DNA of 50,598 nt from an uncultured Eubacteriales bacterium (lineage in GTDB: Bacteria > Bacillota > Clostridia > Lachnospirales > Anaerotignaceae). The stretch is from assembly GCA_949743655.1 (NCBI GenBank), contig CATJUP010000071.1, positions 1 through 50,598 of the forward strand, read 5' to 3'. This document shows positions 15,490 to 50,391 of the stretch, one piece after another (the first letter of the stretch is position 1; the number at the start of each line of letters is the position of its first letter). The notes under the pieces are model-generated. The model saw only the letters and a program-made list of their open reading frames with translations. It was not told the origin of the DNA and did not search any database. The position numbers and the translations under genes were made by a program.

Positions 15490-15505
15490 AACGGAAGTGA
15501 TACCA

Positions 15506-18418: not shown

Positions 18419-19676
18419 TTTAAAAAGAGAAAAAAGCGGAAGAATAGTATTTACAAAAGAAATGAAAAAAGAATATACAATACTTGTTCCGGATATGCTG
18501 CCTATACACTTTAACATAATGAAAAACATATTTACAAACGCCGGCTACAAAATAGAGCTTTTAGATAACAGCGGCGAAAGTGTAAAACAGCTTGGACTTA
18601 AATATATGCATAACGACATATGTTATCCCGCTTTGCTTGTAGCAGGACAATTTTTGGACGCTCTTAAAAGCGGCAAATATGATGTTAATAAAACAGCTCT
18701 TATGATAATGCAAACGGGTGGTGGGTGCAGAGCATCAAACTACATACATCTATTAAGAAAAGCACTTTTAAAAGCCGGTTATGAGAATGTACCTATAATA
18801 TCATTTAACTTATCCGGTTTAGAGCGTAACAGCGGTTTTAAACTTACACTTCCTATAATAAGGCGTATGCTTGCCGGTGTAATATATGGCGACCTTATAA
18901 TGCTTTTAAGCAACCAAACAAGACCTTACGAGGTTAAAAAAGGCGACAGTGACAGGCTTATCAAAAAATGGATTGCCGAACTCTCAAAACAGTTTACGGC
19001 ATCAAAGGGCTATAGTTTTTCTCAAATGAAAGAGAATTTTGAAAAGGTAATAAAAAGTTTTTCCGAAATAAAACTTAAAAAAGAAATTAAAACAAAAGTA
19101 GGAGTTGTAGGTGAAATATATGTTAAATATGCCAAATTTGCCAACAACAGTCTTGAAAAATTTTTAGCAGACGAAAACTGTGAGGTAATGGTTCCGGGGC
19201 TTATGGGCTTTTTAATGTTTAAAGTTGACGCGCGTGTACAGGATTTTTTAATTTATGGCGGAAGTAAAATAAAATTTACATTAGCTAAAGCGCTTTTAAG
19301 ATATTTAGAGAAAATAGAAAAAGCATTTATGGAAGCTATTGATAAATCCCGTTTTACACAACTTTCATCATACAACGATACAAAACCGCTTGTAGATAAT
19401 ATTATAGGTCTTGGCAACCGTATGGGCGAAGGCTGGTTTTTACCAGCTGAAATGATAGAACTTGTAAAACACGGTTATGACAATATAGTTTGTACACAGC
19501 CTTTTGGCTGTTTGCCTACTCACATATGCGGTAAAGGCATGGTACATAAAATAAAATCAATGTATCCTCATGCTAACATTGTGCCTGTTGATTACGATAC
19601 CGGCGCTACTAGAGTAAACCAGGAAAACCGAATAAAACTTATGCTCTCTGTGGCAAAAGAGAAATTGCTGGTATAA
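18411..19676 (+). CDS. 2-hydroxyacyl-CoA dehydratase-like protein (partner of the large activase)
   Basis: 421 aa; MHNDICYPALLVAGQF, MQTGGGCRASNYIHLL, QPFGCLPTHICGKGM; strong RBS caggaggaaaaatta; 8-nt overlap with upstream gene. Confidence 0.75.
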   Translation: MADLKREKSGRIVFTKEMKKEYTILVPDMLPIHFNIMKNIFTNAGYKIELLDNSGESVKQLGLKYMHNDICYPALLVAGQFLDALKSGKYDVNKTALMIMQTGGGCRASNYIHLLRKALLKAGYENVPIISFNLSGLERNSGFKLTLPIIRRMLAGVIYGDLIMLLSNQTRPYEVKKGDSDRLIKKWIAELSKQFTASKGYSFSQMKENFEKVIKSFSEIKLKKEIKTKVGVVGEIYVKYAKFANNSLEKFLADENCEVMVPGLMGFLMFKVDARVQDFLIYGGSKIKFTLAKALLRYLEKIEKAFMEAIDKSRFTQLSSYNDTKPLVDNIIGLGNRMGEGWFLPAEMIELVKHGYDNIVCTQPFGCLPTHICGKGMVHKIKSMYPHANIVPVDYDTGATRVNQENRIKLMLSVAKEKLLV

Positions 19677-21903: not shown

Positions 21904-23043
21904 TTACATTCCTTTAAGTACGCTTTTAGCTATTACACTTCTTTGAATTTGATTTGTTCCTTCATAAATCTGGAATATTTTAGCGTCTCTTAAAAGTTTT
22001 TCAACGGGATATTCACGGCTATAGCCGTATCCGCCTAATATCTGTATAGCGTCAAGAGCCACTTGTACGGCTATATCTCCAGCATAACATTTAGCTATAG
22101 CGCTTTCTTTGGCAAATGATAGACCTTGTTCTTGTCTTAATACCGCTTGAACAACCATGGCTCTGGCTGTTTCGGTTTTTATGTCCATATCAGCTAACAT
22201 AAATTGTATAGCTTGATGATTTGATATAGGACTTCCAAAAGTTATTCTCTGTTTTGAATATTTAACAGCCTCTTCTATACATCTTTGAGCTATTCCAACA
22301 GCGCCCGCGCCAACATAAGCTCTTGACATGTCAAGCGTTTTCATGGCTATCATAAAGCCCATTCCCTCTTTGCCCAAAAGCGCGCTATGAGGCAACCTAA
22401 CATCCTCTAATACAACGTCAGTTGTGTTTGAGGTTCTAATACCCATTTTGTTCTCGTGGTTTCCAACACTAAGTCCTTCTGTGCCTTTAGGCACTATAAA
22501 AGCGCTTATACCTCTTATTCCCCTCGACTTATTCGTCATGGCAAATATAACATAAAAATCAGCTATACCGCCATTTGTTATAAAACACTTTCTGCCGTTT
22601 AAAACATATCCGTCATCATCTTTTACAGCTACTGTTTTTGTATTTGATGAGTCAGAACCAGCCATAGGCTCGGTAAGTCCAAAAGCTGCCTGTCCGCCGT
22701 TAAGCACTATATCACAAGCCCACTTTTTTTGTTCTTCACTTCCCGCTATAAGTACAGGTCTTAAAGCAAGCCCTGTAGCCGACATAGTAGTGTAAAATCC
22801 CGCGTCAGCTTTTGCCATTTCCTCACATATAGCGGCACATGTAACAGCGTCTATACCCACACCGCCATATTGTTCAGGCACTTCAATAGCGCTAAGCCCC
22901 ATTTCGGCGCCCATTTTAACAATATTTTCTGGAAACTCGCCTGACATATCAAATTCTTTACACTGTTCTTTTACCTCGTTTTCGCAAAACTCTTTTACTG
23001 TGGCTACAAGTTCTTTGCCTTCCTCTGTTAAAATATAACCCAT
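21904..23043 (-). CDS. Acyl-CoA dehydrogenase paralogue 1
   Basis: 379 aa; AFGLTEPMAGSDSSNTKTVA, GRKCFITNGG, ILGGYGYSREYPVEKLLRDAKIFQIYEGTNQIQR with catalytic Glu. Confidence 0.95.
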   Translation of the reverse strand: MGYILTEEGKELVATVKEFCENEVKEQCKEFDMSGEFPENIVKMGAEMGLSAIEVPEQYGGVGIDAVTCAAICEEMAKADAGFYTTMSATGLALRPVLIAGSEEQKKWACDIVLNGGQAAFGLTEPMAGSDSSNTKTVAVKDDDGYVLNGRKCFITNGGIADFYVIFAMTNKSRGIRGISAFIVPKGTEGLSVGNHENKMGIRTSNTTDVVLEDVRLPHSALLGKEGMGFMIAMKTLDMSRAYVGAGAVGIAQRCIEEAVKYSKQRITFGSPISNHQAIQFMLADMDIKTETARAMVVQAVLRQEQGLSFAKESAIAKCYAGDIAVQVALDAIQILGGYGYSREYPVEKLLRDAKIFQIYEGTNQIQRSVIAKSVLKGM

Positions 23044-23072
23044 TTGCCGTTTCCTTTCTCACTAAAATTTAA

Positions 23073-24212
23073 TTAAAATTTTCCCATAACGGCTCTTGAT
23101 ATTACTATACGCTGTATTTGGTTTGTTCCCTCATATATTTGGAATATTTTAGCGTCTCTTAAAAGTTTTTCAACCGGATACTCACGGCTGTAGCCATATC
23201 CGCCCAATATTTGTATAGCGTCAAGAGCCACCTCAACAGATATATCTCCAGCGTAACATTTAGCTATAGCGCTTTCTTTATTAAAAGGAAGTCCCATTTC
23301 TTGAAGTGTGAGAGCGTGTATAACCATTTGACGCGCTGTTTCGGTTTTGATTTCCATATCAGCTAACATAAACTGTATAGCCTGAAATTTTCCTATAGGT
23401 TTTCCAAATGTTACTCTTTGTTTTGAATAAGCTACAGCCTCGTCAACACATCTTTGAGCTATTCCAACAGCGCCTACACCAACAAAAGTTCTTGATAAAT
23501 CAAGCGTTTTCATTGCTATTTTAAAGCCCTCTCCCTCTTTGCCAAGCATAGCTGAGGCAGGAACACGAACGTCCTCAAAAACAACATCAGTTGTGTTTGA
23601 TGTTCTTATTCCCATTTTGTTTTCCTCGTTGCCTGCGCTTAAGCCTGGAGTGCCAGAAAATATAAGAAAAGCTGAAATTCCCTTATTGCCCGCTGTTTTA
23701 TCTGTAGCGGCTGTAACAACATAAAAGTCAGATATAGCTCCATTTGTAATAAAGCATTTTCTTCCGTTTATAATATAATCGTCACCGTCTTTTACAGCAG
23801 TTGTTTTACAGCATGAAGGGTCAGAACCGCCCATAGGCTCCGTAAGACAAAATGCGCCATGTTTGCCGTTAAGTATTAAATCGCTTACTTGCTGTTTTTG
23901 CTCTTCAGTACCAGCTATAAGCACAGGTTTATACCCAAGGTTTGTAGCTGTCATTGTTGTGTAAAAACCAGCGTCAGCTTTTGCCATTTCCTCATAAAGA
24001 GCAGCGGCTGTTATTTTATCAATACCTATTCCGCCATACTCCTCCGGTACTTCAAGAGCATTAAGTCCCATTTCGCAAGCCTTTTCGTACATTTCTTTTG
24101 GCCACTCACCGGATATATCGTACTCTTTGCACTGTTCTTTTACTTCATTTTCACAAAACTCTTTTACTGTAGCTAATAAATCTTTTCCTTCTTCATTAAG
24201 TATATATCCCAC
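23073..24212 (-). CDS. Acyl-CoA dehydrogenase paralogue 2
   Basis: 379 aa; same domain motifs, CLTEPMGGSDPSCCKTTA, YEGTNQIQR. Confidence 0.95.
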   Translation of the reverse strand: MGYILNEEGKDLLATVKEFCENEVKEQCKEYDISGEWPKEMYEKACEMGLNALEVPEEYGGIGIDKITAAALYEEMAKADAGFYTTMTATNLGYKPVLIAGTEEQKQQVSDLILNGKHGAFCLTEPMGGSDPSCCKTTAVKDGDDYIINGRKCFITNGAISDFYVVTAATDKTAGNKGISAFLIFSGTPGLSAGNEENKMGIRTSNTTDVVFEDVRVPASAMLGKEGEGFKIAMKTLDLSRTFVGVGAVGIAQRCVDEAVAYSKQRVTFGKPIGKFQAIQFMLADMEIKTETARQMVIHALTLQEMGLPFNKESAIAKCYAGDISVEVALDAIQILGGYGYSREYPVEKLLRDAKIFQIYEGTNQIQRIVISRAVMGKF

Positions 24213-24391
24213 TATAAATTACCCCTCTATTATAAATTTTTTAATATGCTTTGTCAAACAAAAACCAGCGTTACTCTTTAGCAAAATCCAATAGACTTTT
24301 TTGTGGCGCTAAAAGCGATACAAAAAACTTTAAATAAGTATTTAACGCCACATAAAATTTTTATTAAGTCTATTATTTATTTTTAAAAGTC

Positions 24392-24408
24392 TTGTGCATA
24401 TTGCGCAA
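24392..24408. promoter_or_regulatory. Operator-like pseudo-palindrome A
   Basis: TTGTGCA-TAT-TGCGCAA; shares core GTGCANNNTGCGC with 28857-28869. Confidence 0.35.
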
Positions 24409-24455
24409 TTTTTACTTACTCTTATTTAAATTGGCGTTATCCACAAAAATGTTTA

Positions 24456-25592
24456 TTAAAATTTACCCATAACCGCGCGGGATATAACCGTTCTTTGAAT
24501 TTGGTTTGTTCCCTCATATATTTGGAATATTTTAGCGTCTCTTAAAAGTTTCTCTACAGGATATTCACGACTATAACCATATCCGCCCAATATCTGTATA
24601 GCGTCAAGCGCCACCTCAACAGCTATATCTCCAGCGTAGCATTTAGCTATAGCGCTCTCTTTGGCATAAGGTAATCCCTCATCTTGAAGTTTTAAAGCGT
24701 GCAAAGACATTTGGCGAGCTGTCTCGGTTTTAATTTCCATATCGGCAAGCATAAACTGTATAGCCTGAAATTTTCCTATTGGCTGACCGAATGTAACTCT
24801 TTGTTTAGAGTACGCCACAGCCTCATCTATACATCTTTGAGCAACGCCAACAGCGCCTATACCCATTACAGCCCTTGCCATGTCAAGTGTTTGCATAGCT
24901 ATTTTAAAACCGTCTCCCTCTTTACCTATTAAGCAGTCTTCTGGTATTTCCATGTCTTCAAAAACAACATCTGTAGTGTTTGAGGTTCTTATACCCATTT
25001 TATTCTCCTCATTGCCAACACTTAAACCAGGTGTACCTTTTTCAACATAAAAAGCGCTCATTCCTTTTACGCCTTTTTCTTTGTCTGTCATTGCCGTTAC
25101 TATGTAAAAATCAGCTATACCGCCATTTGTTATAAAACATTTTCTTCCATTAAGAACATATTTGCCATCTTTTTTGATAGCTGTTGTTTTGTTATTTGAC
25201 GCGTCAGAACCCGCCATAGGTTCTGTAAGACAAAACGCGCCGTATCCGCCATTTATAAGTATATCAGCCGCTTTTTGTGCCAAATCATCTCTTTTACCTA
25301 TTATAAGCGGTTTAAGTGTAAGATTTGTAACAGCCATTGTTGTAAAAAATCCGGCATCAGCTTTTGCCATTTCCTCATAAAGAGCGGCATAAGTAGTGCG
25401 GCTTATTCCTATTCCGCCATATTCCTCTGGCACTTCTATAGCATTAAGCCCCATTTCGCCGGCTTTTTGGTACATTTCTTCAGCCCACTCGCCCGAAACG
25501 TCATATTCTTTACACTGTTCTTTTACCTCTTTTTCGCAAAATTCTTTTACTGTAGATAATAAATCTTTTCCCTCTTCATCAAGAATATACAT
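24456..25592 (-). CDS. Acyl-CoA dehydrogenase paralogue 3
   Basis: 378 aa; CLTEPMAGSDASNNKTTA, YEGTNQIQR. Confidence 0.95.
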   Translation of the reverse strand: MYILDEEGKDLLSTVKEFCEKEVKEQCKEYDVSGEWAEEMYQKAGEMGLNAIEVPEEYGGIGISRTTYAALYEEMAKADAGFFTTMAVTNLTLKPLIIGKRDDLAQKAADILINGGYGAFCLTEPMAGSDASNNKTTAIKKDGKYVLNGRKCFITNGGIADFYIVTAMTDKEKGVKGMSAFYVEKGTPGLSVGNEENKMGIRTSNTTDVVFEDMEIPEDCLIGKEGDGFKIAMQTLDMARAVMGIGAVGVAQRCIDEAVAYSKQRVTFGQPIGKFQAIQFMLADMEIKTETARQMSLHALKLQDEGLPYAKESAIAKCYAGDIAVEVALDAIQILGGYGYSREYPVEKLLRDAKIFQIYEGTNQIQRTVISRAVMGKF

Positions 25593-25608
25593 TTTTTACA
25601 CCTCTATA

Positions 25609-26745
25609 TCAAAATTTACCCATTATTGAGCGTGATATAACCATTCTTTGAATTTGATTTGTTCCCTCATATAACTGGAATATTTTAGCGTCTCTCAGAA
25701 GTTTTTCAACAGGGTACTCACGGCTGTAACCATATCCGCCCAATATCTGTATAGCGTCAAGAGCCACTTGTACTGCCATATCACCAGAATAGCATTTAGC
25801 TATAGCGCTTTCTTTTGAGTATGGAAGTCCCATTTCTTGCAACTGCATAGCGTGAAGCGACATTTGACGTGCCGTTTCGGTTTTAATTTCCATATCGGCG
25901 AGCATAAACTGTATAGCTTGAAATTTTCCTATTGGCTGACCGAATGTAATTCTTTGTTTAGAGTACGCAACAGCCTCATCCACACATCTTTGCATAATAC
26001 CTGTAGCACCTATACCCATAAGCGCCCTTGTAATATCAAGTGTTTCCATACATGTAACAAAACCTGTTCCCTCCTCACCAATAAGTGCTGACGCGGGAAC
26101 TCTCATATCCTCAAAAACAACGTCTGTAGTGTTTGAGGTTCTTATACCCATTTTATTTTCCTCGTTACCAGCGCTTAAACCTGGAGTACCTTTTTCAACA
26201 AGAAAAGCGCTCATTCCTTTTACGCCTTTTTCTTTGTCTGTCATTGCTGTTACTATGTAAAAGTCAGCTATACCGCCGTTTGTTATAAAACATTTTCTTC
26301 CGTTTATAATATAGTCATCGCCGTCTTTTACAGCGGTTGTTTTATTGTTTGAAGCGTCAGAACCCGCCATAGGCTCTGTAAGACAAAATGCACCATATCC
26401 GCCTTCCAAAAGTAGAGTTGCAGCGCGCTGAATTTGGTCTTCCCTTCCGGCTATAAGAAGTGGCTTCATAGCAAGATTAGCCGCCGACATTGTTGTAAAA
26501 AGTCCGGCATCGGCTTTACTCATTTCTTCATAAAGAGCAGCTATAGTTGTTTTGTTAAGCCCCAAACCGCCGTACTCCTCTGGTACTTCAAGAGCATTAA
26601 GCCCCATTTCGCTTGCTTTATCGTTAATATCTTTTGGCCACTCGCCCGATACATCGTATTCTTTGCATTGCTCTTTTACTTCTTTTTCACAAAACTCTTT
26701 TACTGTAGCTAATAAATCTTTTCCCTCATCGTCAAGAATATACAT
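25609..26745 (-). CDS. Acyl-CoA dehydrogenase paralogue 4
   Basis: 378 aa; CLTEPMAGSDASNNKTTA, LYEGTNQIQR. Confidence 0.95.
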   Translation of the reverse strand: MYILDDEGKDLLATVKEFCEKEVKEQCKEYDVSGEWPKDINDKASEMGLNALEVPEEYGGLGLNKTTIAALYEEMSKADAGLFTTMSAANLAMKPLLIAGREDQIQRAATLLLEGGYGAFCLTEPMAGSDASNNKTTAVKDGDDYIINGRKCFITNGGIADFYIVTAMTDKEKGVKGMSAFLVEKGTPGLSAGNEENKMGIRTSNTTDVVFEDMRVPASALIGEEGTGFVTCMETLDITRALMGIGATGIMQRCVDEAVAYSKQRITFGQPIGKFQAIQFMLADMEIKTETARQMSLHAMQLQEMGLPYSKESAIAKCYSGDMAVQVALDAIQILGGYGYSREYPVEKLLRDAKIFQLYEGTNQIQRMVISRSIMGKF

Positions 26746-35065: not shown

Positions 35066-35557
35066 TTATGTAGTATGTTTTGCGTCTTTAGCTGTTGTAC
35101 AAAGATTTTCATCTTTTATATCATTCTCTGCTTCTGCACCCCATTGCATAGAAACTATACCATCTTCATTTATTTTAAGAGCTAAAATTTTATCTTCATG
35201 TGAAGTCGCTGCTTTCGCGCATTTACCATATTCAGTTATAGAAGTCTTATCAGTGCTTATTACACCTCTAGCTGCATCATAGTAATAAACATCACCCGCG
35301 TTAATCTTTGTGGTAGTAGATGATGGATTACCACTAGTGTAAATTGTTGCGTCAGTACCAGCTAAATATTGTAACATAATTTCAGCTTTAGCAGCTCTTT
35401 CGTTAGCTGCGTCTGTAGCGTGTTTTGTTTTATCCATAGAGTCATTAACAACTGGTATAGATACTGCTACCAATATAGCTATAATAGCCACAACAATAAG
35501 CATTTCTATAAGCGTAAAGCCCTTTTGATTTTTAAGTCTTTCTTTAAATTTTTTCAT
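35066..35557 (-). CDS. pilA: Major type IV prepilin (PilA-like)
   Basis: KERLKNQKG|FTLIEMLIVVAIIAILVAVSIPV class III signal peptide; start at 35557 with gaaaggattgaagaa RBS preferred over track start 35707; two Cys in the C-terminal region. Confidence 0.9.
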   Translation of the reverse strand: MKKFKERLKNQKGFTLIEMLIVVAIIAILVAVSIPVVNDSMDKTKHATDAANERAAKAEIMLQYLAGTDATIYTSGNPSSTTTKINAGDVYYYDAARGVISTDKTSITEYGKCAKAATSHEDKILALKINEDGIVSMQWGAEAENDIKDENLCTTAKDAKHTT

Positions 35558-35606
35558 TTCTTCAATCCTTTCAAAAAATATGTTATAATAATTGTGTATG
35601 TATATT

Positions 35607-35641
35607 TTATTAATGGTACGGGTTGGCTCGTACCTTAATAA
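35607..35641 (-). ncRNA. Structured 5' leader hairpin of pilA with loop AGCCAACC
   Basis: Minus strand TTATTAAGGTACG-[AGCCAACC]-CGTACC(A)TTAATAA; 13-bp stem with 1-nt bulge, about 50 nt upstream of the pilA ATG. Confidence 0.55.
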
Positions 35642-35650
35642 ACTATTTTC

Positions 35651-35676
35651 AATACTCAAGCGTATGCTTGAGTATT
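35651..35676. terminator. Hairpin between pilC and pilA, T-run on + side
   Basis: aatactcaagc-gtat-gcttgagtatt followed by tttttt on the + strand. Confidence 0.5.
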
Positions 35677-35692
35677 TTTTAAAGTTTTTTGT

Positions 35693-35740
35693 CCAACTTT
35701 TTTTCAAAAAAGTTGGTCGGGGTTTGGGGCGGATAGCCCC
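35693..35740. repeat. Candidate interspersed intergenic element with two hairpins
   Basis: ccaactttttttcaaaaaagttgg (35693-35716) and ggggc-ggata-gcccc (35726-35740). Confidence 0.5.
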
Positions 35741-39798: not shown

Positions 39799-40311
39799 CT
39801 ATATAGCGTTTTCACTGTTAAGACAGCGCACTGTAAAATTAGTTTTGCATGTAATATTATCGTTTTGTCCATTTAAAGCTAAATCTATTGTAAAAAAAGT
39901 ATTGTCATAAGTTATAATAAGTTCTTTTGTTTTATATGCACCATTGCCATAAGCGCCTGAAGGCACAATTTTTTTGCCTCCTATTTCTATCTGACCATCA
40001 TCGTTTATGTTTATATCAGCGGCGTTACCATAAGAATCGCTGTTGTAGCTTTTAACAGTATTGTCGGCATTTAGTTTTACATCTCTTGCGCAGCGTAAAT
40101 CATCCGCTAATAAATCTGATATTGTAGCGGCAAGTATATGTATTTCTGATTGAGCTGTAATATTTTTGTAGCTGTTAAAAGCTAAATTAATACCTGTACC
40201 CAAAATTAAACTTAAAAATATAAATATAACCACAACGCAAAGTGTTTCTATAAGAGTTATACCTTTAGAGTTTTTTAGTTTTTGTATCATATTAATTCTC
40301 CGCATAATCAA
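39799..40311 (-). CDS. Minor prepilin 1
   Basis: NSKG|ITLIETLCVVVIFIFLSLILG class III signal peptide. Confidence 0.8.
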   Translation of the reverse strand: MIMRRINMIQKLKNSKGITLIETLCVVVIFIFLSLILGTGINLAFNSYKNITAQSEIHILAATISDLLADDLRCARDVKLNADNTVKSYNSDSYGNAADININDDGQIEIGGKKIVPSGAYGNGAYKTKELIITYDNTFFTIDLALNGQNDNITCKTNFTVRCLNSENAI

Positions 40312-40316
40312 GCCTT

Positions 40317-40613
40317 TTATTTCTTTTTATAAGAATACATCTCATTCTCTCCAAAAAATACTATTTCGGTCTCAAATGTTTGACTGTTGCCAACAATAAT
40401 CACATTTCCGCTTGGCGTAAGCTCAATTTCTTGTTTTTCGGCGGCGGATATAGCATTGTAATAATTGGTATCAGCGTTTTTAGCCTGTTCATTTATTTTT
40501 ACAGACGCCATTATAGCAAAAAATAACATAGACACCGACAATGACGCTATTAATATAGCCGCTAAAGCCTCAATTATTGTCTCACCATTTTGTTTTTTTA
40601 ATTTATTAATCAT
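40317..40613 (-). CDS. Minor prepilin 2 (short, PilV/GspI-like)
   Basis: 98 aa; KKQNG|ETIIEALAAILIASLSVSMLFFAIM, retains E5; 4-nt overlap with upstream gene. Confidence 0.7.
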   Translation of the reverse strand: MINKLKKQNGETIIEALAAILIASLSVSMLFFAIMASVKINEQAKNADTNYYNAISAAEKQEIELTPSGNVIIVGNSQTFETEIVFFGENEMYSYKKK

Positions 40614-41380
40614 GGCGCTGTTCCCAACTCCTCTTTAGCAATCCAATTAAGTTTCCATTTTAAAGGCTCAGTAAAATTAACGCTGCTTGTACTTGGATTA
40701 TCTTTTGGCTGTGGAACACTCCCGCCAACAGGCGTAAGTTCCGCCTCTAATTTATAGTCATAATCCAAATTTGTATAATCATCTGTTCCGGCTATAGAAG
40801 CAGTAACCCTTATACGGTATCCATCATGTAATTTTATAACAACAGTTACATCATCTTTAAGAGCACCATAATTCTCAGCATTATTAACTTGTAAAGTTAA
40901 TGTGTGGTTCTCTTTTAAATTTTGAGAAAGCCATGTGCCTTTATATCTGTCTTGCCCGTCTTTTGGTTTAGAGTCAACAAAATTTTCAAAATCTTTAGAA
41001 AAAACAGCATCCAAATCATCTAAAAGCGGCAGAACATTTGTTCCGTTTTCTGACAAAGAGCACTTAAATTCCCCTTTTGTCTGCTCATATGTATGTTCGG
41101 TATACTCATACCAAATTCCCCAAGTGTATTTATCCTCTTTTTTATATGTGTATTTTCCCGTATACTCGGCTTCTGTAAGAGCATCGCAAACAAGGCGCAA
41201 TGCTGAAGTAAGAGCAAAATATTTTTGCTGCTCCTCTTTTTCACCACGTGTTTTTCCGGCATTAGATGCAGAGGCGGCAAGTATTGTTGACGATACCATT
41301 ATACATATAATAAAAAACAAAATAGAAAACAAAATAGTTACGCCTTTTTGACTTTTTAATTTATAACAAAACCGCCTCAT
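40610..41380 (-). CDS. Minor pilin-like protein lacking E5 (PilX/GspK-like position)
   Basis: 256 aa; KSQKGVTILFSILFFIICIMVSSTILAASASNAG. Confidence 0.65.
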   Translation of the reverse strand: MRRFCYKLKSQKGVTILFSILFFIICIMVSSTILAASASNAGKTRGEKEEQQKYFALTSALRLVCDALTEAEYTGKYTYKKEDKYTWGIWYEYTEHTYEQTKGEFKCSLSENGTNVLPLLDDLDAVFSKDFENFVDSKPKDGQDRYKGTWLSQNLKENHTLTLQVNNAENYGALKDDVTVVIKLHDGYRIRVTASIAGTDDYTNLDYDYKLEAELTPVGGSVPQPKDNPSTSSVNFTEPLKWKLNWIAKEELGTAP

Positions 41381-41403: not shown

Positions 41404-44400
41404 TTAATTTATTACAACAACAGGTACGCTTATTTCTAAAATATGTGTTCTTTCATCAGCAACCGCCTCAATAGTAATCAAAATATTTGTTTCTCCCGCT
41501 TTGTGTCCGGTTAATGTTAAAAGCACCTCATTAGGCAATACATTTTCATTATCCAAAACAGCGGTCACAATAGTCTCATTATCTACTTTAATATTTCTGC
41601 TGTTAATAACTACATTTGTATCATTGTTAGGCAGCAAAACATTAAAATAAACTGTTGGTTTTCCAGAACTCAAATTTATTTCAACCGGTGGCACTGCATA
41701 ATCAAAATCCGGTTTATTTATTCTAAAAGTTATAGGGTTTAACACTGAGTAATCAATTTCATTATGAGTATATTTACAGCGTACATTCTCAACTGCTGCT
41801 GTTACATCACTATTTGTTGTTTTTAAATTTAGTTTTAAACCGTTTTCGGTTTGCTCTATGTTTATATACTCAAAATACTCACTTTCTCCCTCTCTTTTAA
41901 ACTCTTTTATATCAATACCCAAATCGCCTAAATTTAATAAAGTGTTATTTTTACCATAAGGTGTAAGCGATATACTTGTTGTATCGTTTGTAAACAAATT
42001 TACAGGACTTGAATTTGGTCTAAACTCCAAAACAGCCGTTACATTTACAACCACTCGTATTGAGTAGGTTTTTCCGCCATAGCTATAGTTTATTGTTAAT
42101 GTTGTGTGTCCCACGCCTTTGCCTGTTACTGTAAGCACATTATATTTATCTACATTTCCAACAGCTATATTATTATCTTCGCTTACTACATTCCATGTTC
42201 CATTAGGTTGCGCGTTTCCAACAAGAGAGAGTGTTTCCTGGCTTGAGTTATTTACAAACAAATCAAGCTCTATAGGCGTGGCACCGTTTAATCGTTTAAT
42301 ACCATTCATAGGCCAGCTACCATAATGAACATTATAAGCCCCGTTTTCTCTTGTCAATATTGTAGGGAATGGATAATCCAAACCTTTAAGTTCTGTATAT
42401 CTGCTTGGAGCATAACTGTATTTTCCCGAAAGAGAAAACTCACCGTCATCTGTTGTTGATGTTACAGGCGAAAATGCTGTAAGCAAGCTGTATATATTGT
42501 AGCCATTTACATTTTCTTCACTTGATAACTGCTCGTAACTAAGACTTGTAACTCCTGCCGTTCCATTTATGTCGGTTTTAATTCCGCTTATTCCATCCGT
42601 ATTATTTTTTAATGCTTCCGAGCTTAAATAATAGCTGTTTTCTATAGTACAAACACCATGGTTTGCAAGCGTATCACCAGAAGAAGGGATATTATTTATT
42701 GAATAAATCTCTCCCGTACCGCCTAAAGCGTATAATGCTTTTATTTTAGAATTGGCGTTTTTAGCTGGCAAAGTAACATAACTGTAACAGTTAGTAATTG
42801 CGTTATTGGTCTCATTAATTTTATTGTTAGGGTCGCCCACTACTCCTATTCTTTTTGTTGTTCCAAAAACATCAAGAGGTTTAAAGTAACTTCCGCCAAC
42901 AATTCCGCCAATATATATTCCTGGTGTTTCTTTTGCGGCTTGAGAGTCTATATTTATACTTCCGCCAGAATAGCAGTTTTCTATACTTCTTTGACAAGTT
43001 CCCACAAGTCCGCCTATACGCATATTGTCTTTATCAAACGCTTCTGATGGTACATTTATATCTGTAATAGCCGAACAGCCTGTAAGCGACATACTTGATA
43101 TTCCCACAAGCCCGCCGGCGCCAATTCCGCCCCAACTTCCAGTATTTAATCTTGCTTTAACATTAATAGTGTAACCCGCCACAGAACAGTTTTGTATACT
43201 GCTGCCGCTGTCTGATGCAGCCATACCAGCCAAAACGCCTATAGAGTACCAAGCGGATTTTGTACCTCCAGAGTATGCCTCTACTGTTCCATTTCCGTCT
43301 GAAGAGTAAAGAATTATATCTTTAAGTTCTCCATTATAAACTATTCCAAACAATCCGGCGCACGATGACTCTTGACCGTGTATATTAACATTTTCAATCA
43401 TATATCCGCCGCCGTCATAAACACCTCCAAACCACGCATAAAGATTACCTAAATTTCCGCTTGTTTCGTCATAATACTCGGCTATAGGTGTAAAATATGT
43501 ACTGCTGTCTCCCTTAATATCATGTGTTTGCTGCCAATAAATTTTTTCAGTTTTAGCGGCGTAAGAAAGATATGGGAAATGTGTATAATTATCTTTTTCT
43601 ATAACCGTGTTTGTGTTTATTTTATTTAAATTCCAATTTATATTTTGTAACTGAGAAATAGCGCGTATTTCGTATGGATTAAAATTACTGTTTCCAGGTT
43701 CATCTATTATATTTTGGTCGTATATTTCTTCCCAGCCATACGGAATATTTTTAACAGAAATAGCATCGGCAAAATGAGGATTAACATTAAACTCCACATT
43801 AATAGTGCCTTGATACAAATTTATAGAGCCACTTTTTGCCTCAGAAGGATACATACCTCCACCATATTGCGCCAAGCCAAAACTGTGATAAGAGTGGAAA
43901 GTGTAGTCACCCATTAAAGACTTCAAAACATTGTTCACATTGGCATTTTCATACTGTGGCATAGGCGCTTTAAACTCAACACCCGCGTTTTTGTTTACAG
44001 AGTAATTAATACCGCTTGCCGACATTCCCAAAACTGATGCTACATCGTCTGAAGAATAATAACCATATCCATAATCAGTAACAACACCTCCGTCACTATA
44101 TGAATTTGACAAAGTAGTTTGCTTTATCACAGTTTTATTTTTTGCGTCAACCGCCAAAAGGCTTACATCATAAGTTGTTCTTCCCAATACTTCTAATTTT
44201 TCCCAATAGTATACTCCCATAACACCCAATTCCATAGGTGTTGGCCAACTTCCGTAATGTACATAATTTCCTTTAGCGTCTTTAACTGTAGCAGGATATG
44301 GATATACCCCTCCAAAATCAGCCGATAAGCCGCCTAAAGCCATTGTATTTATAACATTTGATACATTCTCATTGTCCGGTGACGGTTCTGTCATTTGGCT

Positions 44401-47400
44401 GTATGTTTTTTCTGCCGCCTTTTTTGGTGTGTAGCTTGCGTTATAAGATATATCTCTATATGTAAAGTTTCCTCTATTTAAATAAACCGTGCCTGTTTGA
44501 CTTCCTTCTGTAATTCCGCAAAAAGCGTATGTTTCAACATTTAATCCGCTTGAGCGCAGATTAACAGCCGCATAACTGTCTTTTATATAACTTCTGTTAT
44601 ATCCCACAAAACCGCATACTCTTGCTAAAGATGTAGAGTCAACCTCTGATGTTACACGCCCCACAGAATACGAGTATTCAATAGTTCCTCCTGTAGCGTT
44701 TTCTCCTACCAATCCGCCTACATAAGATGACGCAAAATTTGAACTGTCTGTTGAAAGCATTCCTACCTCAGCGGCGCTGTTTTGTATTATTCCGCTGTTT
44801 TGACCTACCAAACCGCCTACATAAATTATTCCGCCATAAGCCATTCCCTTTAAATTAGCTCCCGAAACAGCACAGTTAATTACAGAACCCATGTTTCCGC
44901 CCACAAGTCCGCCTAAATATTGCCCAACAGCACTGTTTCCTATAGTTACAACAAGTTCTTTATTGTAGTCCATATTATAAACAACATTACGTATAGTACC
45001 TGTTGAGTAGCCAAAAAGACCGGCATAAGCTCTATCACTGTCTTTATAAATATCAAAACTTATTTCTGATATACTAAAACTATGACCATCATATGTGCCG
45101 TTAAATGGACTGCTCTGTCTTCCTATAGGAGATTGAGTTGACTTGCTAAACTTATTTCCATATCCTGTATATTTGCTGTATACCAAATCCAACTCTTGAT
45201 TAAACGTATACGAATTATCGTTATGATAGTATTGGTCATAAGCACTTAAAATACGTAAATGTCTTGGTGTACGCACAGTTACAGGTATACTTTTGGCATC
45301 AGGCGCCTCGTCTTCAGTTTCAACTGCTGTTCCGGCAAAATGAGGATTATAATAATAATTTCCTAAATTTGTTACTCCCTCTATTGAATAACTAAAATTC
45401 AATGGCTGATAGAAATTAGGAGCGGCGTAATCTACATTAACAATACTTTCTGGAATTGGCGCTATACAAAATACACTTCCGTCCTCACTTTCAACAGTAT
45501 CCAAATATGATATATCATAATTTTCGGTTGTTGTAACAGTTTCGGCGGCATTGTTTAAATGAGTGTAATCAATTTTTAGCATTCCCGCACTTGGAAGTTC
45601 ACTTTTAAGCATAGCAACAGCGTATCCGTCTATAACAGGAATATTATTTTTTAAACTTGCAACACCGCCACCCTGAAAACCAAAAGAGTTATCCTCATAT
45701 TGCTCGTAATAAACCAAACTTGCTTTTTGGAACTGCGCGCCCCAATCCCCATAATGAGGAATATCTTTAATACCTGGAAAATCATAAACGCTCAAATCCA
45801 AATCTGTACGCAAATTATAAGGCTCGCTTGAGTTACGCTCTTTAAACTCAAACTCAGCGCCTAACTCTTTTTGAAAGTCCTCGTTTGTCATATCAGCGTA
45901 TGTTTTTGTGTGCTCGTCCGCGCCAGTGCCAACAGCAAGGCTATAATACTTTTCACTTGCTGCTGATATTTTATCAGCCAAATTAATTATTACGGCGTTG
46001 TCTTTTTTATCTGTATAACGCATTACACTATAAACACCATTTAATTTAATACTACCATTGCCCAAACATACACCAGCGGCGTTATCACATTCTGACATAT
46101 CAATAAATCCCGCGGTATAAGCGTTTTTAGCAGTTATCTCGGCTAAATTATTGCCAACTAAACCAGCGGCGTTTTTACCATATAAATAACAGTCAGAATA
46201 AGAATTATTAATTTCAATATCATTTAAAGCTGTGCCAATTAAACCGCCCACAGTTTCACCTTTAATAAGTGTGGCGGCAAAACAATTTGTAATAATGCCT
46301 CCGTCCATAATTCCAGCTATTCCGCCCGAAACTTCGCCCAAAATAGAATAATTATAACCGTCCTCATTATTTCCTAATTTTCCTCTTAAATTAGATGTTC
46401 CAATATCTCTTTGCCAATATACATAACAGTTTGTAAATTTTGTGTTTGACGCATTACCCACAAAAGCACCTGTAGCAGTAACATCGGTGTTTATTGTAGT
46501 ATCAACCAAACTTAAATTTAAAAACTCAGTATCGTTTGTTTGGGCAAAAAGCCCCGCGCCTGTTTTATTTTCAGCGCTCTTAGGAGTAATATTTAATTTT
46601 TGGATTAAATTACCACATCCATCATACTTTTTAATACTGTCGTTTTGTATAGGTATAAAATCATAATTAGAACACATTATATTAGCTATTTGTTCAGCGC
46701 TTGTTTTGTTTTTTACGCCCGAAAAATTCTCGTCAATATTTTGAATATGACGCAAATACTCTATTTTAGCTGTGTTTCCTCCACTACCTTTAGCAAAAAG
46801 ACTGTTGTCGCTAACTGTGGCTGTACTGGAACTTATTCCGCTATAATTTACTGTTGCTGTAGCTGTAAAGTCTCCACCAAAACCACTTGTAACAGTACCA
46901 AATAAGTCTTTAAACTGTTTTCCGCTTTTAAGTGAGTCTAAAACCCATGAGTACGAGTAATTAGCGGCACCGTTGTTATAATTCAAATTCTCATTTTCTA
47001 AAACAAGTTCAATATTTTTTCCTCCATACGAAAGCGTAACTGACAAATTAGTAGCGCTTGCCGCTGTAATAGGCACACTATAACTAACTTTAAGTGTTAG
47101 TTCTTCTTTATTGTCTATTGTTATAATAGGTGTATAAAGCGCTCCGGTACTGCTGTTTTGGGCAGTTTCCCCTCCATAATATCCTATAATAGGATTATTA
47201 CTCATTCTTATTTTTGCTGGAGCAGCACGCCAAATATTATAAAAGCCTTGAAAATCATCAACTTTTATTTCTTCCTCAGTAAAAAACACGTCTGTTACAC
47301 TTCCAGTTTTTGGCTCATAAACAACATAAAAAAAGTTGTCTTTTAATTTTGGGTCAATACTTCCTGAAGGTAGTAAATCAGAATGGTCTTGATTTGGCTT

Positions 47401-47706
47401 GTAATATATGTAATATAAATCCGTGTCTTTATCGTTGCCTTCTTCATCTTTAATATTAGCTGTAATTAAATTATCGGCAAAAACAACACGTTCTTCAAGA
47501 CGCCCGTTATTATATAAAGATACCGCACGGTTTTGAGAAGACATATATATTTCTTTAGCCATATTGTCAAGCTCAATAAGTTTTAAATTACGCATATGTT
47601 TTGTTGCGGCTACAGCGGATACAGACATAAAAATTATCATTATAACCACAACAACAAGAAGTTCTATAATTGTTAGACCTTTGCAATATTTATTTCTCAT
47701 TTTCAT
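41404..47706 (-). CDS. Giant prepilin-type protein (2100 aa) with GLUG-like repeats and C-terminal Ig-like (BIG2-type) domains
   Basis: N-terminus NKYCKG|LTIIELLVVVVIMIIFMSVSAVAA; repeated GGLVGxNxGxIxNSYS motifs; HYGxW motifs at three positions; C-terminal NIAVGNVDKYNVLTVTGKGVGHTTLTINYSYGGKTYSI. Confidence 0.85.
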   Translation of the reverse strand: MKMRNKYCKGLTIIELLVVVVIMIIFMSVSAVAATKHMRNLKLIELDNMAKEIYMSSQNRAVSLYNNGRLEERVVFADNLITANIKDEEGNDKDTDLYYIYYKPNQDHSDLLPSGSIDPKLKDNFFYVVYEPKTGSVTDVFFTEEEIKVDDFQGFYNIWRAAPAKIRMSNNPIIGYYGGETAQNSSTGALYTPIITIDNKEELTLKVSYSVPITAASATNLSVTLSYGGKNIELVLENENLNYNNGAANYSYSWVLDSLKSGKQFKDLFGTVTSGFGGDFTATATVNYSGISSSTATVSDNSLFAKGSGGNTAKIEYLRHIQNIDENFSGVKNKTSAEQIANIMCSNYDFIPIQNDSIKKYDGCGNLIQKLNITPKSAENKTGAGLFAQTNDTEFLNLSLVDTTINTDVTATGAFVGNASNTKFTNCYVYWQRDIGTSNLRGKLGNNEDGYNYSILGEVSGGIAGIMDGGIITNCFAATLIKGETVGGLIGTALNDIEINNSYSDCYLYGKNAAGLVGNNLAEITAKNAYTAGFIDMSECDNAAGVCLGNGSIKLNGVYSVMRYTDKKDNAVIINLADKISAASEKYYSLAVGTGADEHTKTYADMTNEDFQKELGAEFEFKERNSSEPYNLRTDLDLSVYDFPGIKDIPHYGDWGAQFQKASLVYYEQYEDNSFGFQGGGVASLKNNIPVIDGYAVAMLKSELPSAGMLKIDYTHLNNAAETVTTTENYDISYLDTVESEDGSVFCIAPIPESIVNVDYAAPNFYQPLNFSYSIEGVTNLGNYYYNPHFAGTAVETEDEAPDAKSIPVTVRTPRHLRILSAYDQYYHNDNSYTFNQELDLVYSKYTGYGNKFSKSTQSPIGRQSSPFNGTYDGHSFSISEISFDIYKDSDRAYAGLFGYSTGTIRNVVYNMDYNKELVVTIGNSAVGQYLGGLVGGNMGSVINCAVSGANLKGMAYGGIIYVGGLVGQNSGIIQNSAAEVGMLSTDSSNFASSYVGGLVGENATGGTIEYSYSVGRVTSEVDSTSLARVCGFVGYNRSYIKDSYAAVNLRSSGLNVETYAFCGITEGSQTGTVYLNRGNFTYRDISYNASYTPKKAAEKTYSQMTEPSPDNENVSNVINTMALGGLSADFGGVYPYPATVKDAKGNYVHYGSWPTPMELGVMGVYYWEKLEVLGRTTYDVSLLAVDAKNKTVIKQTTLSNSYSDGGVVTDYGYGYYSSDDVASVLGMSASGINYSVNKNAGVEFKAPMPQYENANVNNVLKSLMGDYTFHSYHSFGLAQYGGGMYPSEAKSGSINLYQGTINVEFNVNPHFADAISVKNIPYGWEEIYDQNIIDEPGNSNFNPYEIRAISQLQNINWNLNKINTNTVIEKDNYTHFPYLSYAAKTEKIYWQQTHDIKGDSSTYFTPIAEYYDETSGNLGNLYAWFGGVYDGGGYMIENVNIHGQESSCAGLFGIVYNGELKDIILYSSDGNGTVEAYSGGTKSAWYSIGVLAGMAASDSGSSIQNCSVAGYTINVKARLNTGSWGGIGAGGLVGISSMSLTGCSAITDINVPSEAFDKDNMRIGGLVGTCQRSIENCYSGGSINIDSQAAKETPGIYIGGIVGGSYFKPLDVFGTTKRIGVVGDPNNKINETNNAITNCYSYVTLPAKNANSKIKALYALGGTGEIYSINNIPSSGDTLANHGVCTIENSYYLSSEALKNNTDGISGIKTDINGTAGVTSLSYEQLSSEENVNGYNIYSLLTAFSPVTSTTDDGEFSLSGKYSYAPSRYTELKGLDYPFPTILTRENGAYNVHYGSWPMNGIKRLNGATPIELDLFVNNSSQETLSLVGNAQPNGTWNVVSEDNNIAVGNVDKYNVLTVTGKGVGHTTLTINYSYGGKTYSIRVVVNVTAVLEFRPNSSPVNLFTNDTTSISLTPYGKNNTLLNLGDLGIDIKEFKREGESEYFEYINIEQTENGLKLNLKTTNSDVTAAVENVRCKYTHNEIDYSVLNPITFRINKPDFDYAVPPVEINLSSGKPTVYFNVLLPNNDTNVVINSRNIKVDNETIVTAVLDNENVLPNEVLLTLTGHKAGETNILITIEAVADERTHILEISVPVVVIN

Positions 47707-47793
47707 ACCTTCTATTTTTTTATAATAAATTGTTTACTTATCAACACAAAATGAAAGTTTTATTAAAAATTTCTAATGTTTTTGTTTAAAAAA

Positions 47794-47864
47794 AACCTCC
47801 CTTTTACAAGGGAAGTTTTTCCTAAATATAAAAACCCCCCCCCATTTTAAATTGGGAGGTTCAT
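47794..47864 (-). terminator. Tandem terminators downstream of the histidine kinase gene, one containing a 9-bp homopolymer
   Basis: Minus strand: aacctcccaatttaaaatgggggggggttttta and cttcccttgtaaaagggaggtttttttt. Confidence 0.65.
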
Positions 47865-48072
47865 TATCATATCCAAATAATTAATTACACTAACGTGTCG
47901 AATATAAAGTCTTCTTAAGTTATTTACAATTATAATATATATTGTACTAAAATTCAACCATTTTAATAAATTATTATTTCAAATTTATATCATATTTACA
48001 ATTAATATATTTCTAAATATATGTATTATCTACTTTTAATTGTATTTATGTACAAAACTGGTTATATTTGAA

Positions 48073-50391
48073 TTATTTACACTTTTGTTTTTCAATCAAA
48101 ACTTTTGTTATTTTATTAAACATTTTAACTGTATCAAGTGGTTTAGATATATGTCCATCCATGCCAGATTTAATAGCCTTTTCACAGTCTTCTTTAAAAG
48201 CATTAGCCGTAATAGCTAAAATTGGAATTGCGGCTTTTTCATTATCCTCAAACGTTCTTATACATCTTGTGGCTTTATATCCATCCATATTAGGCATTTG
48301 TATATCCATAAGTATTAAATCATAATATCCATTTTGAGATTTTAAAAGCATATCTACACATTCCACTCCGTCTTTAGCTCTTTCAACAATACAGCCTTTG
48401 CTTGTTAAAAGTTTTGTGGCTATAATGGCATTTATATCAATATCTTCCGCTAACAAAATACGTTTTCCTTTTAATAAAGTATCATTTATAATTTCTGTAT
48501 GTTCGGTTATATTTTGCTCCGTTTTTTCTTCTATTCTATGCGGAAGTTTTATTGTTACTTTTGTACCCTTTCCAGAAGCGCTCTCAATATAAACTGTTCC
48601 TTTCATCAAATCAACCAAATTTTTAACAATAGTCAGCCCAAGACCAGTACCTTGAATACCGCTTATTGTTGAAGTACGCTCTCTTGAAAAAGACTCATAT
48701 ATACGAGGCAAAAACTCACTTGATATTCCAATACCGTTATCCTCAATAATTGTTTCAACAAAACATGTATTTGGTGTTTCTCCTTCTATTTCTTTAAAAC
48801 TAACGTTTATTTTGCCGCCATTTGATGTGTATTTAACAGCATTACTCATAATGTTTAAAAATATTTGAGAATAACAAGTTTTGTCTACATACATATACTT
48901 ATGTTTTATATTCCAAATTACACTATGTTCCAAATTTTTTTTACTAAAATCACTTTCAAATATAGTTAGCAGTTTATTAAATGTTTTTTTTACGTCAATT
49001 AATTCCTCTTGTATTATAACTTTATGATTTTCAATTCTAGACAATTCCAAAATATTGTTTATTAAATCCAAAAGCTGTTTGCCAGAAACACTAATATTTT
49101 TTAAATACTCCTTTTGTGTTTCAACATCATCATTTTCTAAAGCTAAATTTGTAAAGCCAAGTATAGCATTCATAGGTGTACGAATATCATGAGACATATT
49201 AAATAAAAATTCAGATTTAGCTTTGTTAGCCTCCTCAGCGTATTTTACAGCTTTTTCAAGTTGCTCTTTTTGTTTTTTAATTTTTTCACTCATCTCAATT
49301 TTTTCAGAACTTTGCAAAAGGCTGTCAACCATACTATTTATATGGTCGCTTAATTCCAAAAATTCTTTACTGTTTTTCACATCCACTTTTGTTTTAAGAT
49401 TTCCACATTGTATTTCTCTAAGATTAACATTAATTTGTTTAATTTGTTCAATTACAGTTTTATTCATAGTATTTTCCACTGATTTTACTAAAATAAGAGA
49501 AATTAAAATAAGCGCTACTAAAAGCAAAAGTTCGTTAGTAATAATTGATTTATAAAGACTATCTACTGGCTTTACCCATAATATATAGTTATTATCAATT
49601 TTTCTTGATAAACAGTGATATTTGTTTTGTCCTATAACTGTGTGAAACGCTTTACCTTTATTAAGCTCATCCATTTTAAACCCAATTTCTGACGCACTTT
49701 TTTCAACGTCAGATACCACTGTTGAACCTACTACCTTTTGAGTGTCAGCGTTAATAGCATAAAGCTGGTATCCAACACTTGTTCTAAGAAGTGAAAAAAT
49801 ATAAGATAGCTCATTTTTTTCAGTTGCGCGAAGTACATTAACCGGATACATTCCAACTTGTATTATAAATTCTTTATTATCACTCCAAATAGCCGAATAT
49901 TGAACAGACTTTCCCTCAGGCGTATTTGGTGTAATATCTTGTACAAGTTCCATAGAATTATATTCAAGCAACGGTTTAAAAAAACTCATCTGCTCACCAG
50001 AGTCAAATGAGTAACCAATATACTCTGGATGTGTTCCTGATATAATAACACCGTTTTTATCAAAAATATGTATTTCGTCAACTTTAACATAATTGGCTAT
50101 CTTTTTAAGTTCATATATATCATTCATAGCATCTGGATTATATTCAATAATATAATCCACAGTACGTGCCGCATTTAAACAATAATGCTCGTATTCTTTT
50201 TTTACCTCTTTTAACTCTTTTGAATTTTCATCCAAAATTTGTTCAATTTGGTCAAACATTTGAATAGCATATTTTTTATTTTCTCGGTCAACACTAAACA
50301 TTTGTATAAATGTTGAGAGAAAAATTATTATACATACCATAATAAGAGTTATTTTTATCATATTTTTTACAACTATATTTTTTATGGTCAA
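48073..50391 (-). CDS. Hybrid sensor histidine kinase / response regulator
   Basis: 772 aa; two TMs flanking an extracytoplasmic sensor, HAMP-like linker, HisKA FLFNMSHDIRTPMNAILGFTNLAL, HATPase EDNGIGISSEFLPRIYESF..GTGLGLTIVKNLV, REC domain ILLAEDIDINAII...DLILMDIQMPNMDGY...ISKPLD. Confidence 0.93.
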   Translation of the reverse strand: MTIKNIVVKNMIKITLIMVCIIIFLSTFIQMFSVDRENKKYAIQMFDQIEQILDENSKELKEVKKEYEHYCLNAARTVDYIIEYNPDAMNDIYELKKIANYVKVDEIHIFDKNGVIISGTHPEYIGYSFDSGEQMSFFKPLLEYNSMELVQDITPNTPEGKSVQYSAIWSDNKEFIIQVGMYPVNVLRATEKNELSYIFSLLRTSVGYQLYAINADTQKVVGSTVVSDVEKSASEIGFKMDELNKGKAFHTVIGQNKYHCLSRKIDNNYILWVKPVDSLYKSIITNELLLLVALILISLILVKSVENTMNKTVIEQIKQINVNLREIQCGNLKTKVDVKNSKEFLELSDHINSMVDSLLQSSEKIEMSEKIKKQKEQLEKAVKYAEEANKAKSEFLFNMSHDIRTPMNAILGFTNLALENDDVETQKEYLKNISVSGKQLLDLINNILELSRIENHKVIIQEELIDVKKTFNKLLTIFESDFSKKNLEHSVIWNIKHKYMYVDKTCYSQIFLNIMSNAVKYTSNGGKINVSFKEIEGETPNTCFVETIIEDNGIGISSEFLPRIYESFSRERTSTISGIQGTGLGLTIVKNLVDLMKGTVYIESASGKGTKVTIKLPHRIEEKTEQNITEHTEIINDTLLKGKRILLAEDIDINAIIATKLLTSKGCIVERAKDGVECVDMLLKSQNGYYDLILMDIQMPNMDGYKATRCIRTFEDNEKAAIPILAITANAFKEDCEKAIKSGMDGHISKPLDTVKMFNKITKVLIEKQKCK

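Follow-up and report, generated by a model that had tools for sequence, protein, structure and literature searches.

In an uncultured Eubacteriales bacterium of the family Anaerotignaceae, a type IVa pilus (T4aP) operon begins with a gene for a giant prepilin of 2100 amino acids (aa), about 10 times the usual pilin size. The gene lies on the reverse strand at 41404..47706 of the 50,598-nucleotide (nt) contig CATJUP010000071.1 (assembly GCA_949743655.1; hereafter the window). Its product is probably a giant modular minor pilin, in which an H-type head of ~170 aa carries a ~1,900-aa ectodomain at or near the pilus tip, most likely with an adhesive role. This reading draws on a prepilin signal, the homology of the head to other pilins, the graft of a large C-terminal module onto that head, the operon, a constant slot within it, and the conservation of the giant among relatives, all read from sequence. 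The H-I-J-K gene context suggests display at the pilus tip, and adhesion is inferred.

The open reading frame (ORF) runs through 2100 codons with no internal stop. The true start is probably the second ATG, at 47700, which would give 2098 aa and is favored because a site resembling a ribosome-binding site (RBS), AGAAGG, lies 7 nt before it. The N-terminus, MKMRNKYCKG/LTIIELLVVVVIMIIF (the slash marks the cleavage site), has the form of the class III prepilin signal recognized in the first-pass annotation of this DNA: a leader ending in Gly, the junction KG/LTIIELLVVVVI..., ~20 hydrophobic residues, and Glu at +5 (Glu5), which is present in 20/20 homologues. The N_methyl model PF07963, proposed as a check, gave a mixed answer, with 26 bits in the genome scan, above the cut-off, and 20 bits (E=5e-4) in the protein scan, just below the cut-off of 21.2. 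GLUG-like repeats, also noted at first pass, were borne out by Pfam, PF07581 matching five stretches (E=8.6e-11). By motif count there are 12 GLUG-like sites, most of which fall into three clusters (aa 461-514, 895-997, and 1450-1600), and each GLUG module is closed by an HYGxW motif (aa 651, 1150, and 1794). The ~1,900-aa ectodomain, comprising three GLUG arrays and linkers, is probably mostly beta. The Ig-like modules proposed at the C-terminus fared less well: PF02368 (Big_2) had no match in the tail, and PF13629, a pilus-associated domain, matched the isolated tail below its cut-off (E=3.6e-4), leaving the tail possibly Ig-like. For the linker at aa ~181-310, the Ig-like assignment is weak, with PF24619 at E=0.0039, below its cut-off. 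Neither the PilC/PilY1 beta-propeller (PF05567) nor an HExxH zinc motif was found in the giant, whose net charge is about -80; its homologues are acidic too. Searched against PDB sequences, the whole giant had no match, and the head matched pilin N-helices along with weak unrelated entries. A search of viral contigs yielded no relative of the giant.

The giant is followed on the same strand by three more prepilins and then by pilB-T-C-A-D-M-N-O, and the machinery of a T4aP (pilB, pilC, pilD, pilM/N/O, and pilT) is present. This agrees with the first-pass description of the giant as the leading member of a run of four prepilin-like genes that precede pilB, the others encoding K, I, and J proteins of 256, 98, and 170 aa; the four are spaced -4 to about 26 nt apart. 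Assignments of pilD, pilM, and the pilin signals were made by profile and that of pilB by orthologues, while pilT, pilC, pilN, and pilO were assigned mainly by sequence and order. The host genome is a fragmented assembly of 192 contigs, 91% complete. All prepilin motifs detected in it lie within this operon, the giant is the sole GLUG protein detected, and a ComEC-family protein is encoded. No secretin and no sortase were found in this 91%-complete genome, with positive controls matched in both searches, and the giant contains no LPXTG motif, as the first-pass annotation had stated. An LPXTG surface protein was thereby ruled out.

Where the neighborhood was assembled in relatives, the usual order is the giant (H), a prepilin lacking Glu5 (K), a prepilin of ~100-150 aa that often starts GET or GES (I), and a prepilin of ~160-320 aa (J). 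Glu5 is found in 20/20 giants, 18/18 J proteins, 13/16 I proteins, and 0/18 K proteins, and the K-slot proteins match GspK in 12/18 cases. H-type models, namely ComGD, GspH, and PRK10506 (which we take to be of H type), match 15-17/20 giants, and gspJ matches 2/20. By slot and head, the giant is best read as an H (GspH/FimU/ComGD-like) minor pilin with a giant C-terminal module. It is encoded together with I, J, and a Glu5-less K, and an H-I-J-K set starts and tips type 4 filaments (PMC9934059, PMC10191384, PMC12153270).

The boundary between head and ectodomain can be placed by comparison with bare heads. Two species have a stand-alone pilin of 189-191 aa in the H slot, its stop codon overlapping the start of K. 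These short pilins are similar to the giant's head (E=1e-8) and to a relative (2e-11), and they align to the giant through IGYYGG and end soon after the equivalent IGFYGA. Because the bare heads end just past this motif, the pilin module can be delimited to aa ~11-180, with the remainder added; the giant has a complete head followed by a GLUG module. The first-pass idea of a pilin-anchored giant ectodomain is upheld by this head homology and added C-terminal module. What follows the same head differs by lineage, and includes GLUG, List_Bact, an M26_N end segment, and a marginal CBM5/12. One 2780-aa H-slot prepilin (L158:6055-14397) has List_Bact (Flg_new) repeats in place of GLUG (E=1.7e-68), and one homologue matches an end segment of Peptidase_M26_N (9.2e-9). 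A 2451-aa giant (L106:1988-9343) has a CBM_5_12 match below the cut-off (E=2e-4), which may point to polysaccharide binding.

Within the host's family, 12 of 58 genomes encode a full-length PilB of this type. The giant prepilin and operon occur in 11 of these 12, and the remaining 46 genomes, those without this PilB type, yielded no giant (Fisher p=5e-11, a value that is too small because the genomes are related and kinship was not corrected for). The sole exception, G056, has PilB without a giant, and its PilB is the most diverged, at 40% identity. Intact giants in the family measure 1343-2219 aa. Two further copies (G025 and G034) run off a contig end, their operons being split over contigs. 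In the single-contig genome G022, the giant gene is read in two frames of 428 and 1511 aa (L057:10148-16032), reflecting a frameshift or an assembly error.

Relatives extend beyond the family. A profile of head plus linker matched in 26/295 genomes of the order, one match (G120) not being a prepilin. The regions examined outside the family mostly encode larger proteins (4121, 4035, 3722, 3509, 3284, 2732, 2725, and 2451 aa), with smaller ones of 1891, 1185, and 1171 aa. A head-only profile matched in 15/388 genomes sampled from the class and 6/398 from the phylum; several weaker matches were not prepilins, and the new head-bearing prepilins measured 3749, 2780, 2446, 2182, 2034, 1232, 501, 483, 363, and 189-191 aa. 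The giant's pilin head turns up in related classes too, mostly with the gene order H-K-I-J, in proteins reaching 4121 aa. Chance is excluded as the origin of the giant because related genes retain its head, size class, and gene position. In T4aP clusters examined elsewhere in the order, Glu5 prepilins are mostly of ordinary size (largest 599 aa), and any large subunit is usually K-like without Glu5, commonly 450-1,080 aa. The 4035-aa giant of G219 (L103:7373-19480) differs from the other giants checked in that a hydrophobic segment (aa ~4008) and a basic tail lie at its C-terminus. In G194 (L111:2528-10403) and G062 (L112:6516-14345), a 670-675-aa H-slot prepilin is followed by a separate protein of 1247-1360 aa, with a signal-peptide-like N-terminus and List_Bact repeats, and then by a protein of 563-673 aa. 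This arrangement may represent the giant in split form, its parts no longer joined covalently.

We can postulate how such a protein would be assembled and displayed. PilD would cleave the leader; K, which lacks Glu5, would begin the filament with I and J; and the giant would join beneath them by way of Glu5 and its hydrophobic helix. PilB would then add the PilA shaft below, with PilT retracting it, so that the ectodomain would end up at the tip or close to it. Known tip complexes have H beneath K-I-J and adjoining the shaft, and the ectodomain would for this reason sit near the tip and not at the apex. Of the first-pass interpretation, minor-pilin status is supported and membership of the tip complex stands as the best reading (H-K-I-J order, Glu5, and GspK matches); the apex itself gives way to a slot near the tip. 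Given that no secretin was found, we propose that no outer-membrane pore limits the size of the ectodomain. The ectodomain would most likely bind a surface, a glycan, a protein, or another cell, and a single polypeptide would do the job that minor pilins and PilY1 share in diderms. The proposal that the giant takes the place of PilY1 is in keeping with the missing secretin and with the absence of PilC/PilY1 from monoderms (PMC9934059); the host genome gave no PilY1 match, in a search whose positive controls also gave none. More generally, the chances seem about even that, in Clostridia without an outer membrane, the H subunit serves as a covalent substitute for PilY1, with a fixed head and an arm of up to ~4,100 residues exchanged between lineages, possibly split in G194 and G062.

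Several observations weigh against an adhesive H-type giant. ComGE matches 18/20 giants, and general pilin models match as many as the H-type ones do; because the H-type models perform no better, the main grounds for calling the giant H are its gene order and the pattern of Glu5. The order is K-I-J-H in G062 and G194, and in one genus (g183; L160, L162, and L163) the heads occur in proteins of 483, 501, and 2446 aa with no K-I-J detected adjoining. No recognized ligand-binding domain was found in the giant. AlphaFold predictions were of low confidence (pLDDT, the predicted local distance difference test), both for aa 1-335 alone (36.5) and for GLUG module B aligned with the giant's own modules A and C (35.7).

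Other functions and locations were weighed on the same data. The ectodomain could be mainly a tip-borne receptor that captures DNA for transformation, a role proposed for the Thermus ComZ beta-solenoid and the ComGD-ComGF interface. ComZ is a beta-solenoid pilin that binds DNA (PMC6561018), the host encodes a ComEC-family protein, and the only prepilin motifs detected in its genome are those of the giant's operon. We nevertheless consider a DNA receptor unlikely, as the giant and its homologues are acidic, and the variation of the ectodomain between lineages fits the diversification of an adhesin better than a single DNA ligand. It is slightly less probable that the giant is intercalated along the shaft, like Clostridioides difficile PilJ, instead of being a tip subunit. 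Its helix region resembles those of major pilins, an IAIP break is kept by many homologues, and adhesive intercalated pilins are known (PMC13234629); on the other side, gene order links the giant to the K-I-J tip set, and in published modelling, steric constraints put bulky modular pilins at the tip (PMC8179133, PMC9934059).

We give a little less credit again to the view that the giant never enters a pilus, its prepilin helix merely anchoring a surface protein in the membrane. Incorporation is itself deduced, in a few relatives the head occurs at a distance from any minor pilins detected, and the L103 giant also has a C-terminal hydrophobic segment. However, Glu5, required for the packing of pilin subunits, is kept in 20/20, and the giant gene lies inside the pilus operon and is present or absent together with pilB. 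A pilus-borne peptidase of the M26 (IgA1 protease-like) type, following the reading of IPR012902-IPR011493 in a 2021 survey, is very improbable. GLUG does occur in M26 proteases, and one homologue matches the Peptidase_M26_N end segment, but HExxH is absent from 21/22 homologues checked and from the giant, which makes a peptidase reading unfit for it, and no M26 catalytic domain was matched. Finally, although the host assembly is fragmented (192 contigs), misassembly of a prepilin gene with a neighboring surface-protein gene has a negligible chance and is refuted because this fusion and gene order recur independently in numerous genomes, which belong to several families and in some cases consist of very few contigs.

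Features of the giant prepilin gene and its operon in the window
Feature	Coordinates	Strand	Evidence
Giant modular prepilin, putative H-slot minor pilin, 2100 aa (2098 from 47700)	41404..47706	-	ORF, GLUG, N_methyl, conserved operon context
Prepilin leader, aa 1-10 ending KG, or 8 aa (MRNKYCKG) from ATG 47700	47677..47706	-	Sequence, RBS-like site; predicted cleavage
Pilin head, aa ~11-180, hydrophobic helix with Glu5, ends at IGYYGG (aa ~174-179)	47167..47676	-	Alignment with stand-alone pilins
Beta-rich linker domain, aa ~181-310, conserved in family relatives	46777..47166	-	Alignment
GLUG module A, aa ~314-660, HYGDW at aa 651	45727..46767	-	Motif count, own-module alignment
GLUG module B, aa ~806-1160, HYGSW at aa 1150, best Pfam GLUG matches	44227..45291	-	Motif count, own-module alignment, Pfam
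GLUG module C, aa ~1338-1805, HYGSW at aa 1794	42292..43695	-	Motif count, own-module alignment
C-terminal tail, aa ~1806-2100, possibly Ig-like	41407..42291	-	PF13629 below cut-off, no Big_2
K-type minor prepilin, 256 aa, no Glu5	40610..41380	-	Signal without Glu5; GspK best match for 12/18 of slot
I-type minor prepilin, 98 aa	40317..40613	-	GETIIEAL signal; weak ComGE match
J-type minor prepilin, 170 aa from TTG	39799..40311	-	Signal with Glu5; slot members match ComGE/ComGF/PilV weakly
pilB extension ATPase, 563 aa	38081..39772	-	Orthologues at 40-64% identity in 11 other family genomes; invariant GPTGSGK in alignment
pilT-like ATPase, 354 aa	36968..38032	-	Cross-match to pilB query, gene order
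pilC-like platform protein, 400 aa	35753..36955	-	Sequence, gene order
pilA, probable major pilin, 213-aa ORF	35066..35707	-	PF07963 3.4e-10, ComGC-like 5.5e-10
pilD prepilin peptidase, 258 aa	34095..34871	-	PF06750 5e-24, PF01478 2.4e-14
pilM, 327 aa	33092..34075	-	PF11104 1.8e-19; TIGR01175 1.3e-26, below its cut-off
pilN-like, 193 aa	32514..33095	-	Position between pilM and pilO; no significant profile match
pilO-like, 184 aa	32012..32566	-	Position; weak T2SSM match E=0.0064
Intergenic region upstream of operon	47707..48072	-	RBS-like site just before giant gene; no Rfam RNA

Two starts in the table probably lie further inside their ORFs: that of the J-type prepilin, and that of pilA, where the signal glycine is at residue 63. 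Rfam searches around the operon, riboswitches included, returned nothing relevant, and promoter and terminator scans upstream were unreliable in an AT-rich stretch. The gene directly upstream, at 48073-50391(-), encodes a hybrid histidine kinase that includes a response-regulator domain; 366 bp separate it from the giant gene. Elsewhere in the window, four consecutive ORFs of 378-379 aa lie at 21904-26745(-), and both of the two tested are acyl-CoA dehydrogenases; at 15497-19676(+), a 973-aa BadF/BadG-type ATPase and DUF2229 protein, a second DUF2229 protein, and a DUF4127 protein adjoin one another.

IPR011493 presumably denotes the GLUG motif, so that a pilin joined to GLUG has probably been recorded already. 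The 2021 survey reports 264 modular-pilin architectures, one of them pilin plus IPR011493, read as an M26 peptidase, and the most extreme multi-domain modular pilin it names has 860 residues (PMC8179133). For pilin plus IPR011493, the survey's main text gives no size, operon slot, or family conservation, and the giant differs from the reading given there in having no catalytic motif (PMC8179133). Modular pilins, probably including pilin plus GLUG, are thus already published; the novelty appears to lie in the size class, in the fixed H slot, in the series from bare head to 4121 aa, and in the conservation with one operon type. In openly licensed full texts, supplementary tables excluded, we found nothing closer on giant or unusually large pilins or on GLUG. 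The giant family hints at a way in which bacteria lacking an outer membrane could mount very large adhesins on their pili, some relatives being twice the giant's size. The natural series in one slot (189-191, 363, ~1,200, ~2,000, and ~4,100 aa) makes it possible to test the cargo limit of a tip subunit, whether lack of a secretin removes a constraint on size, and the exchange of modules on a fixed head.

Among known systems, ComGD-E-F-G and GspH-I-J-K likewise comprise four minor pilins, one of them without Glu5, with H/ComGD adjoining the shaft; their pilins are of ordinary size, and the gene order here is H-K-I-J. ComZ of Thermus thermophilus is also a pilin with a large repetitive beta-solenoid domain, proposed to lie at the tip (PMC6561018). 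In that diderm, however, a solenoid of ~380 residues is placed inside the sheet of a GspK-like head, whereas the ~1,900-aa module of the giant would follow a complete H-type head, with the Glu5-less K encoded by a separate gene. Like the giant as proposed here, the PilC/PilY1 of diderm T4aP is a very large adhesin presented through a minor-pilin tip complex, yet PilY1 does not belong to the pilins and its attachment is non-covalent. Display of an adhesin on the retractable pili of monoderms lacking PilY1 is known mainly from Streptococcus sanguinis, where PilB and PilC, both modular pilins, are adhesins located at the tip (PMC8179133, PMC9934059). There, as proposed for the giant, a class III pilin module precedes a functional C-terminal module at the tip of a monoderm pilus, and PilB adjoins the shaft as H would. 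PilB has 454 residues once processed and a vWA module, compared with 2100 aa (up to 4121 in relatives) and GLUG or other repeats here, and where S. sanguinis has PilA, PilB, and PilC, the operon in the window keeps a full H-I-J-K-like set.

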